Below, one piece after another: positions 33,527 through 40,161 of a DNA stretch of 40,161 nt (position 1 is its first letter; the number at the start of each line of letters is the position of its first letter). Origin of the DNA: Promethearchaeota archaeon. GTDB lineage: Archaea > Asgardarchaeota > Lokiarchaeia > Sigyniarchaeales > SOKP01. The position numbers were made by a program, and so were the translations under genes. Under the pieces are notes generated by a model that was not told the DNA's origin, did no database searches, and worked only from the letters and a program-made list of their open reading frames with translations. The stretch spans positions 1-40,161 of the forward strand of contig JAUWGH010000013.1 in NCBI GenBank assembly GCA_030606485.1, in the 5' to 3' direction.

Positions 33527-35002
33527 TTATGTATTCCACCTCCCTGGATTAAAGATACCATTTGGATCCATACATTTTTTTATTTTTTCAAATAAGTTTA
33601 ACCAGCCAGGATTAATTTTTTTACGCATTTTTTCCGTCATCCAGGCAGGTGTTTTATAAGGGATACAACCCAATTCTAAACAAGTATCAACGATTTCTTC
33701 TAATAACTTATGAATTCTTTCCTCATCTTTAAATTTATCAAAGCGTATTATTGGTCTAAATATGCAATAATGTGAATATTTCATGCTTTTCATGTATAGG
33801 TACAACGGAACATTATATTTTTTAAAAAGTTTATCTACTTTTTGTGATAATTCTTCTATTTTATGAGAGGGAGCATAACTACCAAACCATGTTAAACCAG
33901 AATATTCAAATAAAGATAAAACCATTGATGGTAAATCTACTAAACTACGAAGTCTTAAGTTAAATAATTTTACAAATTCATCAAAATCTATTGAATATAC
34001 TCTAATACCTTTTTGTTTAATTTTCTCAACTGTATTTAAATATATCTCCTTTTTTGCTTTATATTCATTCTCTGTATGAGCCGTAATTATGGAAATCGAC
34101 ATCATTCTTGGCTCTCCAGGAAATGTTTTAGGTTCCGGAATTCCACAGCACATTTTAACTATTTCAATGCTTCCAAGGGCAATATCATCAATAACCTCCG
34201 TTCTTCCAATTTCTCTACTAATTTCTCCTACATCCTCCAAATTAAAAATTATTAATGCTTCAGATTTACGAATTGATTTCTTTGGCCATAATTGAACTGC
34301 ACATTTTGTTATTAATCCGGTCATACCTTGCCAATTTACAAATAATCCCATTAAATCGGGCATTGGATAACGACTCCACCAACTATCGGGGTCAGCTTCC
34401 TCTTTCCCATAAAAACATGAACCTATCCGTGCGATGTCGCCATCAACTGTAATAACTTCTAAACCGTTAATAGAATCCCCCATTGATCCGATTTTACATG
34501 ACAAATTATTCATACCGCTTAACATAACATTTCCTACTACACCTGCATAGGGTGGTGCAAAAGGATAATTATATCTAAGGTGCGGATAATTTTCATCTAA
34601 ATGCTTCTTTAATTGTCCAAATGTCACTCCGGGTTCTAGTAAAGCATACATCATATTTTCATTTATATGTAAGATTTTATTCATTTTTTTACCGAAATCT
34701 ACGATAATTCCTCCCCGTTCCGGTATTGTGAGGCCTCCAACATTATTTCCAGAGATATAGGGAACAATAGGGATTACATTTTGATTACAATATTTAACTA
34801 ACTCTACTAATTGTTCTTTATTTTCTGGGATTACAACAAAATCCGGCATATTCGGAGCGCATTCGGTCATATCGTAAGAATAAGGATATAAATCAACACT
34901 TTTACTTGATACATTCTCCTTTCCAAAAATTTCAACTAACTTTTTATAAACTTCTTCTTTATTGACTTTTTCAAAAATATTTGTTTCTTTTGAGATTGTC
35001 AT
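33527..35002 (-). CDS. GlcD-like FAD-linked oxidase subunit (module 3)
   Basis: A 491-residue VAO/PCMH-fold flavoprotein. The FAD-binding region has PYISGNNVGG (81-90), VDFGKKMNKI, EPGVTFGQLKKHL and APPYAGVVGN. The C-terminus ends KKCMDPNGIFNPGRWNT. It differs clearly from the module 1 and 2 copies in the flavin loops, so the substrate probably differs too. Translation starts 12 bases after the SCP2 gene; an AGGGGT Shine-Dalgarno lies close to the SCP2 stop. Pairing with a lipid-carrier-like SCP2 domain suggests a hydrophobic substrate, which is inference. Confidence 0.88.
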   Translation of the reverse strand: MTISKETNIFEKVNKEEVYKKLVEIFGKENVSSKSVDLYPYSYDMTECAPNMPDFVVIPENKEQLVELVKYCNQNVIPIVPYISGNNVGGLTIPERGGIIVDFGKKMNKILHINENMMYALLEPGVTFGQLKKHLDENYPHLRYNYPFAPPYAGVVGNVMLSGMNNLSCKIGSMGDSINGLEVITVDGDIARIGSCFYGKEEADPDSWWSRYPMPDLMGLFVNWQGMTGLITKCAVQLWPKKSIRKSEALIIFNLEDVGEISREIGRTEVIDDIALGSIEIVKMCCGIPEPKTFPGEPRMMSISIITAHTENEYKAKKEIYLNTVEKIKQKGIRVYSIDFDEFVKLFNLRLRSLVDLPSMVLSLFEYSGLTWFGSYAPSHKIEELSQKVDKLFKKYNVPLYLYMKSMKYSHYCIFRPIIRFDKFKDEERIHKLLEEIVDTCLELGCIPYKTPAWMTEKMRKKINPGWLNLFEKIKKCMDPNGIFNPGRWNT

Positions 35003-36316: not shown

Positions 36317-37117
36317 ATGAGCCAAAAAAAACCTTATATTATAGCAGTTATAGGAAAGGGTGGTTCAGGAAAATCAGTATTTTGCGCCATCTCAATAATG
36401 ATAATTGCTAATATGAAAAGATTTAAATTATTTGCTGTTGATGCAGACCCAACTCATTCTCATTTATCTGATCTTCTTGATGTGAAAATTGATAAAAGTT
36501 TAGAAGCAATCAGGAAGGAAATTATTAAAACTGCAGCACAAGGAAGGGAATCTGGAAAAATAAAATTGGCAGAAGACATAGATTATTTAGTTTATAATGC
36601 AATCGTTGAAAATAAAGATTTCTCCTTATTAGCTGTAGGACTGCCCGAAGGTCCTGGATGTTTTTGTCCAGCAAATAGTTTACTGAAAAAAGTAATATCT
36701 TCAATATCTTTGGATTTTGATATAGTTCTAATTGATTGTGAAGCCGGTTTAGAACAAATAAGTAGAGAAGTAATCAGCAATGTGGACACAATAGTAATAA
36801 TATCAGACATTTCAGTTAGGAGTATAGAAACCGCTAAAACCCTACTTCAAAACTCTAAAAAATTTACAAAATATAAACATATCGGCATTGTCGTTAATAG
36901 AGTTCGAGGAGATATATCTTTTCTAAGAAAAAAAATTAATGATATGAATATACCTACTTTTGGAGAAATCCCCGAAGATGATAATGTTATAAAATTAGAT
37001 ATTGAAGGTAAATCAATGAGAAATTTATCCTTTGATACATCAATATATAAAAGTATTGAGAAAATTATACAGAAAGTTTTAGATTTCAGGGTATCATTAA
37101 AAGATTTAAAGATATAA
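36317..37117 (+). CDS. CooC/AcsF-like nickel-insertion-type ATPase
   Basis: A 266-residue ATPase of the MinD/CooC (SIMIBI) class. The deviant Walker A is GKGGSGKS (13-20), with the DADP motif at 42-45. The CxC metal motif is GPGCFC (Cys115, Cys117) and a Walker B-type LIDCEAGLEQISR (138-150) matches the CooC family's xxEAGLEHLxR signature. CooC and AcsF load nickel into CODH and acetyl-CoA synthase, using a dimer bridged by the CxC. It lies 14 bases after the ACS-like gene, so the pair is very likely an operon. It keeps all the motifs needed for activity, which argues that its partner still takes up a metal. Confidence 0.88.
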   Translation: MSQKKPYIIAVIGKGGSGKSVFCAISIMIIANMKRFKLFAVDADPTHSHLSDLLDVKIDKSLEAIRKEIIKTAAQGRESGKIKLAEDIDYLVYNAIVENKDFSLLAVGLPEGPGCFCPANSLLKKVISSISLDFDIVLIDCEAGLEQISREVISNVDTIVIISDISVRSIETAKTLLQNSKKFTKYKHIGIVVNRVRGDISFLRKKINDMNIPTFGEIPEDDNVIKLDIEGKSMRNLSFDTSIYKSIEKIIQKVLDFRVSLKDLKI

Positions 37118-38690: not shown

Positions 38691-39674
38691 TCATTTTTTT
38701 AATGTGGTAATTGGACGGCTTTGTAATATGTATATTTTATCATTTTCTATTGCCCATTCAATATCTTGAGGTAAATTGAATGCATTTTCAATTTTTAATC
38801 CTAAATTATGAAGTTGGCGAAGTTGTTTTTCGTTTATAGAGCAGACAGTCCTGGATTGGGGGTCTGTTTCTATCAAAATTGTATATGGCCCTTCAGGATT
38901 CTTAATCGACTTTTTCTCTTTTTTACCGATAATCCTCTTTATAATTTCGAATTTTTTTTTTTTAATTATAATAGTATCTGGGATTATTAAATCATCCGCA
39001 ATAGTATCACCAAGCCCCCATGCGGAATTTATCAACATTTGGTTCGAATCATTATTTATTACATTAGCTGTAAAAAAAACTCCTGATATTTGTGAATTAA
39101 CCATTTGTTGAACAATAACAGCCATATGAATATCAGATAATGAAATATTTAATCCTTTTTTCCGCATTTGAAGGATATAAAGCAGTGATTGAGGGGAAAA
39201 TAATGATAACCAGCAATTTTTTAAAGATGCTATAATATCATGAATATTATTGTTATGTAAATAGGTATCAGCTTGTCCAGCAAAGGAGAATTTTTTGGAA
39301 TCTTCGATTGTTGCTGAAGATCTAACTGCGAAAGAAATTTTACTCCCAATTTTTCCTTTAATCTTATCAAATGCTACTCTGATTTCATCGATTATTTTTT
39401 TAGGAATTTTTGATTTCAATATTAAATCTCTGATTTTTATTGAGTATTGTAGAATTTCTTTTAAATGAAATTGTTTTGATAATAATTTCATCAATTGATT
39501 GCTGTATTTAGATTCTTCAAGGAATTTTTTATAAGATTTTGTATTGATAATGAATCCAGAAGGGACCCTTACTCCTATTTTTATTAATTTGATTAAATTG
39601 GATCCTTTACCTCCCAATAAATCAATATTAGGTGTTACTTCTGAAAAAAATACAACGTATTGCGAAAGTTTCAT
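38691..39674 (-). CDS. Stand-alone PEP-synthase-type ATP-grasp domain (PPDK_N)
   Basis: A 327-residue protein made only of the ATP-binding (PPDK_N) domain of PEP synthase and related phosphotransferases. Motifs: GGKGSNL (21-27), VPSGF (37-41), AVRSSAT (116-122), FAGQ (131-134), VQQMV and the closing ILQSRPIT (316-323), where the domain normally ends. The full-length enzymes continue with a swivelling phosphohistidine domain and, in PEP synthase, a PEP-binding barrel. Both are absent here, with no frame continuing downstream. A phosphohistidine-domain gene starts 268 bases away on the opposite strand, suggesting a two-protein enzyme. The phosphate acceptor is unknown: rifampicin-phosphotransferase-like and PEP-synthase-like roles are both open. 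Confidence 0.85.
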   Translation of the reverse strand: MKLSQYVVFFSEVTPNIDLLGGKGSNLIKLIKIGVRVPSGFIINTKSYKKFLEESKYSNQLMKLLSKQFHLKEILQYSIKIRDLILKSKIPKKIIDEIRVAFDKIKGKIGSKISFAVRSSATIEDSKKFSFAGQADTYLHNNNIHDIIASLKNCWLSLFSPQSLLYILQMRKKGLNISLSDIHMAVIVQQMVNSQISGVFFTANVINNDSNQMLINSAWGLGDTIADDLIIPDTIIIKKKKFEIIKRIIGKKEKKSIKNPEGPYTILIETDPQSRTVCSINEKQLRQLHNLGLKIENAFNLPQDIEWAIENDKIYILQSRPITTLKK

Positions 39675-39942
39675 AGATATTCTTTGAAATAGTAATAAAT
39701 AAAATATATTTAATTAAATATTAAAAATTTTTATCATTTTAAATTAACTCCTTTATTATTTTTATTTAATTTAATAAAAATAGCAAATACGAGTTTCCTA
39801 ATTTATTAATTTTTTAATTTTTAAGATATCATAAAGCATATTTTTATTTGAATCTTTTAAAAAAATAAAGTTTTATTAAAGATTAAATGAAATAATAAAT
39901 TAATAATTATTCAAAATAATATTTTCAATATAGTTGATTTAG

Positions 39943-40161
39943 ATGAAAAAAATTGGGGAAGGATCATCTTGTTCGTCCAATTCAGAAGTTTTAGGAGAAT
40001 TTGTGTATATCCAATCCGTCGAAGACGTAATAAATTTATTTGATGATGCTAACGGGAAAATATGTATCGTAGATGATTCGGGTACTACTACTCTTGGTCC
40101 AATTTTATCAGATTTAGCAGGAGTATTGTGTCCACTCGGTTCTGCGGGCTCACATCTAGCT
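39943..40161 (+). CDS. Swivelling phosphohistidine (PEP-utilising) domain protein, 3' end outside window
   Basis: An open frame from ATG to the window end (73 codons so far). It reads like the mobile phosphohistidine domain of PEP-utilising enzymes: ICIVDDSGTTTLGPIL, then LAGVLCPLGSAGSHLA, corresponding to the usual AxVTDxGGxxSHxAI motif with His71 as the phosphorylated residue. It is divergent from the stand-alone ATP-grasp gene (38691-39674), with which it could form a split phosphotransferase. The first 25 residues (SSCSSNSEVLGEF) precede the domain. The C-terminal part, including any PEP barrel, cannot be seen. Confidence 0.75.
   Translation, partial: MKKIGEGSSCSSNSEVLGEFVYIQSVEDVINLFDDANGKICIVDDSGTTTLGPILSDLAGVLCPLGSAGSHLA

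Follow-up and report, generated by a model that had tools for sequence, protein, structure and literature searches.

A stand-alone ATP-grasp protein and a free swivelling phosphohistidine protein in Asgard archaea: candidate components of a split dikinase

Two divergent genes at the end of a Lokiarchaeia contig raised the question of whether a dikinase can be built from separate proteins and, if so, which protein takes over the phosphate from its carrier. The window, that is, the whole stretch of DNA analysed, is a complete contig (C9) of 40161 bases from a 3.75-Mb genome, and its end cuts the second of the two genes. The features concerned are the following:

38691..39674, minus strand: ATP-grasp gene, 327 aa, stand-alone kinase component consisting of a complete PPDK_N domain only
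39675..39942, no strand: divergent intergenic region of 268 bp, AT-rich, in which only TATA-like words were noticed
39943..40161, plus strand: swivel gene (his), codons 1-73, predicted phosphohistidine carrier, truncated at the contig end; full length in the genus, 118 aa
40153..40155, plus strand: codon of His71, the predicted phosphate carrier, in the motif G-S-x-G-S-H-L-A

Analysis of the minus-strand reading frame revealed a PPDK_N match (Pfam E 2.5e-83) covering 309 residues (18-326 of 327), and the protein ends with ILQSRPITTLKK followed by the stop codon. The plus-strand frame begins with MKKIGEG and leaves the contig at GSAGSHLA; by itself, this 73-residue fragment has no Pfam match. 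The region between the genes presumably carries the promoters for both. Elsewhere in the window, a P-loop ATPase with the motif GKGGSGKS, MinD/CooC-like by eye, is encoded at 36317-37117 on the plus strand, close to a GlcD-like FAD-binding oxidase at 33527-35002.

A second, complete swivel copy was found in the same genome (C8:16-369, 118 aa), 93% identical to the window copy over the shared part. It matches PF00391, the PEP-utilizers mobile domain, with E 3.7e-9, and can thus be assigned to that family on sequence grounds. Other full-length relatives also match PF00391 and stop right behind the domain: at all 52 other Asgard loci with the gene pair (see below) the swivel frame spans about 116-147 aa from stop to stop, with no further domain, and the histidine is kept in 55/55 sequences. 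The second gene therefore ends soon past the window, but behind a complete swivel domain in every relative, which removes the concern that it might be a stub. The end of contig C9 and the start of C8 carry similar his copies (DNA 89% identical over 227 bases). In a relative (G002) the gene order is ATP-grasp (minus strand), his, cl3, his, cl3, cl2 (minus strand), cl3 and cl2 being the two protein families described below. The C9 end aligns with the first his copy of this relative and the C8 start with the second, about 1.7 kb being absent between them. From this synteny we infer that C9 and C8 join here, and the contig break probably results from the his-cl3 tandem duplication.

A single scan of species-representative genomes yielded 80 loci. 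Besides the window, 52 Asgard loci have a stand-alone ATP-grasp gene adjoining a free swivel gene, in Loki-, Hel-, Hermod- and Thorarchaeota and in one genome labelled Njordarchaeota. The last of these (L074, on a contig titled Candidatus Njordarchaeum) has a Loki-type cassette and is nested among Lokiarchaeia in the tree, and its label may be a binning error. The sequence-only reading had stressed the divergent arrangement. This is real in the window's lineage but confined to it (9/52 loci); in the other 43 the genes are co-directional, with swivel upstream of ATP-grasp and mostly short spacing, as in an operon. The same stretch also contains a cl3 gene at 50 of the 52 loci and a cl2 gene at 49. 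The window's lineage has the ATP-grasp gene on one side and his-cl3, divergent from it, on the other; in other lineages the his and ATP-grasp operon is mostly divergent from cl3-cl2. The unit is therefore a four-gene cassette (ATP-grasp, swivel, cl3 and cl2) rather than a pair.

A tree that also included fused PEPS-like, RPH-like and bacterial enzymes placed all 53 stand-alone Asgard ATP-grasps (window included) together as one side of a branch with an SH-aLRT of 100. The ATP-grasp of a Patescibacterial locus (L128) fell outside this clade. Among solved structures, PEPS and RPH come closest, and residues K23, R118, T137 and E306 correspond to K22, R117, T136 and E297 of RPH, positions with described catalytic roles (PMC4844700). 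The first two are present in 53/53 stand-alone homologues and position 137 is T or S, while E306, Q318 and R320 are invariant in all 52 proteins that reach them. Within the genus, the ATP-grasp gene has a dN/dS of 0.32-0.62 and the swivel gene one of 0.20-0.21, and the catalytic residues of the stand-alone ATP-grasps are kept under purifying selection. Since both proteins are separate and conserved, phosphate must pass from one chain to the other, as had been proposed from the sequence alone.

Transfer between chains is not new, since the two-component dikinases HpeHI, CreHI and PpsAB (phenylphosphate synthase) are already known (PMC12167813, PMC6114531), and a two-chain dikinase is functional in vitro (PMC12167813). 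The premise that known enzymes carry these domains in one chain and in fixed order does not hold: in RPH the His domain is C-terminal, and in PpsAB, CreHI and HpeHI the ATP-grasp is on a separate chain (PMC4844700, PMC12167813). The Asgard system resembles the latter three in that its ATP-grasp, a homologue of the PEPS/RPH N-domain with conserved predicted ATP-site residues, is a subunit of its own, and in moving phosphate between chains through the swivel His. It differs in the partner chain. In those enzymes a single polypeptide (HpeH, 71 kDa; PMC12167813) holds both the swivel and a large substrate-binding domain, whereas the Asgard swivel is free, 118 aa long and has no substrate-binding domain. 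On a Rhizobium leguminosarum plasmid (L202), an HpeHI-type pair has the same order as the Asgard operon, swivel protein and then ATP-grasp; its operon also encodes biotin carboxylase and HAD hydrolase, which is consistent with a phosphorylation-carboxylation aromatic pathway. RPH and RPH-like enzymes share homologous ATP-grasp and swivel domains and the catalytic residues, but are single chains, and their substrate-binding domain has no sequence relation to cl3. PEP synthase and PPDK have the ATP-grasp and His domains in common with the Asgard proteins, which, in contrast, are separate genes without the PEP/pyruvate-binding domain PF02896. The lone archaeal ATP-grasp SSO2820 of Sulfolobus, an orphan PPDK_N (PMC6474364), is similar but has no known partner.

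The cl3 proteins are about 390 aa long (385-466). No Pfam family scored above the cut-off; a RepA_C match of one member (E 3e-4) was below it and was taken as chance, and the cl3 profile gave only a chance match among PDB sequences. An earlier model, built on 19 sequences, was of poor quality (pLDDT 67), and a fold search with it is meaningless. The AlphaFold2 model from 44 sequences was confident (pLDDT 94.9, pTM 0.92) and matched nothing at E <= 0.001 in the PDB plus a viral structure library. Two candidate identities for cl3 were rejected by hhalign: a detached RPH-like substrate-binding domain (probability 0-0.4%, positive control 100%) and an HpeH-type substrate-binding domain (0.1%), to which cl3 is thus unrelated in sequence. 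In view of these results, the acceptor role of cl3 rests on gene linkage; we regard cl3 as probably the acceptor-side component. A second cl3-cl2 pair in the genome (L176:5937-8029, on C5) has no ATP-grasp or swivel genes nearby, and kinase-less pairs likewise occur in three other genomes (G001, G002 and G003) and in Helarchaeota. The C5 pair would fit either one carrier serving several acceptors or a separate use of cl3-cl2.

We take cl3 as a third component chiefly because it recurs with free swivel genes in Patescibacteria. In a Paceibacterota locus (L128), a free swivel gene of about 113 aa is followed by one for a 378-aa cl3-like protein; cl3 aligned to this single sequence over 212 columns with an hhalign probability of 69%, whereas none of 40 shuffles exceeded 1.8%. 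Searching 384 genomes identified four further Patescibacterial homologues (one weak, broken match was left out). The resulting five-member family (L128, L209, L210, L211 and L212) matched cl3 at 93.8% (E 1.7e-7, 311 columns). At 5/5 of these loci a free swivel gene of 115-121 aa adjoins the cl3 homologue or lies within about 3 kb of it, and a stand-alone ATP-grasp is nearby at three. These results indicated that the link between cl3 and a free swivel has either been kept across domains or arisen twice. Searches of plasmids and viruses with the Patescibacterial cl3 gave no match. At one of the five loci (L212) there are also genes for two proteins of 493 aa whose C-terminal domain is a swivel. 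Other Patescibacterial loci (L109, L118 and L127) have two-component dikinases made of a lone ATP-grasp and a protein of 376-504 aa that has the swivel at its end; these were considered as cl3-swivel fusions and rejected, their N-terminal parts being unlike cl3 or HpeH.

The cl2 proteins are DUF7064/DUF7065 proteins that resemble the Rv3169 family, below the cut-off of that model. A profile of 38 members matched 25-phosphosteroid lyase in the PDB (9fzn, E 6.5e-9), the homology at family level covering the N-terminal half of the lyase only. The sequences of 9fzn and 9g4c differ by an Asp to Asn change in the aligned G-S-R-D-R-S-W-G, which suggests that this Asp was mutated as a catalytic residue. 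It is present, within the motif RD-x-SWG-x-R, in 45/45 cl2 proteins, and this residue together with the homology places cl2 in the lyase family. In Sterolibacterium, 25-hydroxysteroid kinase and the lyase, called putative in the cited literature, carry out an ATP-dependent dehydration of 25-hydroxysteroids (PMC8449060). The Asgard cassette likewise sets a kinase beside a lyase homologue with the RD-x-SWG-x-R motif, but its kinase would be a split dikinase, whereas 25-hydroxysteroid kinase forms a ternary complex with ATP (PMC8449060). Within about 2 kb of the fused RPH-like dikinases in Lokiarchaeia there is usually a cl2-like gene as well (most of 14 loci); at two of these loci, L155 and L159, none was found within the stretch read. 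The DUF7064/DUF7065 gene near such enzymes (L009:1237-4995 on C10; L147-L158) has the motif GQRDHTYG[IV]R. On Pseudonocardia and Sphingopyxis plasmids, cl2 homologues adjoin a gene annotated as phosphotransferase family protein, and on a Sulfitobacter plasmid the two occur in one cluster. In Mycobacterium branderi, a fused dikinase has a hypothetical protein as its neighbour, which was discarded as a cl2 homologue: it has no Pfam family, and its profile search was empty.

The best reading of these data, which we hold to be probable, is a dikinase of the PEP synthase/rifampin-phosphotransferase superfamily of small-molecule dikinases that is split in three (ATP-grasp, swivel and cl3) and would phosphorylate an alcohol, cl2 then eliminating the phosphate. 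The ATP-grasp protein would bind MgATP, the free 118-aa swivel would dock on it, and the beta and gamma phosphates would be transferred to His71. Loss of the gamma phosphate would leave phospho-His, AMP and Pi, an outcome predicted from the conserved His and ATP-site residues. These steps are well supported by homology and conserved catalytic residues, and on that basis the kinase role of the ATP-grasp and the carrier role of the swivel are very likely. The charged carrier would then leave the ATP-grasp, dock on cl3 and pass its phosphate to an alcohol group of a probably hydrophobic substrate, and cl2, by analogy with 25-phosphosteroid lyase, would eliminate it to form a double bond, the net reaction being an ATP-driven dehydration. 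The acceptor, substrate and dehydration steps are suggested by gene linkage and homology, and for the last of them, catalysed by cl2, we see even chances. A wider proposal is more tentative: the phosphohistidine carrier may be diffusible and serve, in the manner of HPr, at least one cl3 acceptor enzyme in trans, acting together with the lyase relative to dehydrate a lipid alcohol by way of its phosphorylation; the ATP-grasp/swivel/cl3 core would have a counterpart in Patescibacteria.

Other explanations were weighed against this one. The contig end cuts the second gene at a place where there is also a tandem duplication, so the two genes might be what is left of a full-length gene that broke up, or might have arisen as an artefact of the assembly. 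This is extremely improbable, and refuted as far as tested: the genes are intact at the 52 other loci, in independent assemblies, neither the catalytic residues nor the His has been lost, dN/dS is low, and the operon order, His and then ATP-grasp, is opposite to that of fused enzymes. The genome does encode full-length enzymes, a PEP synthase (C1), an RPH-like enzyme (C10) and a PPDK (C12), yet the stand-alone ATP-grasps form a clade of their own, and the sequence-only reading was right not to take the pieces for remnants of such a paralogue. Its PEP-synthase label fared less well. PEP synthases are the best full-length homologues by sequence, and the two proteins could in principle form PEP together with a separate pyruvate-binding protein. 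However, PF02896 occurs in this genome inside the C1 and C12 enzymes only and nowhere free-standing, the complete PEP synthase and PPDK are already available, and the conserved neighbours, cl3 and the lyase relative, are unrelated to PEP. A split PEP synthase is thus largely refuted and very unlikely.

A phosphorelay is a more serious competitor, although still an unlikely one. In such a system the ATP-grasp would charge the swivel, which would phosphorylate cl3 or other proteins in a regulatory or PTS-like manner, cl2 being the lipid enzyme under control. A free carrier is akin to the HPr/EI-N logic, it could be shared by the several cl3 paralogues of a genome, some of which lie away from the kinase, and a regulatory role has been suggested for Sulfolobus SSO2820, which lacks PEPS/PPDK activity (PMC6474364). 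Against this, the His of the cl3 HGPY motif is unlikely to be the receiver, since ten Asgard copies have Q, M or N in its place. The steady presence of the lyase relative better suits a metabolic role, and cl2-like genes adjoin fused RPH-like dikinases too.

We met with no description in the open-access literature of a free-standing swivel, of cl3, or of a dikinase coupled to a phosphosteroid-lyase relative. If the three-part dikinase is confirmed, it would represent swivelling-domain catalysis in a minimal form, in which a normally tethered mobile domain acts as a free carrier and the docking steps can be tested separately. It may also explain orphan ATP-grasp proteins such as Sulfolobus SSO2820. 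It would give a likely function to two unnamed families, cl3 and the archaeal DUF7064/7065 proteins, both found repeatedly in the archaea most closely related to eukaryotes. The cassette points to an unrecognised chemical dehydration of alcohols in Asgard archaea and suggests ATP-dependent double-bond formation in these organisms, perhaps in lipids or isoprenoids.
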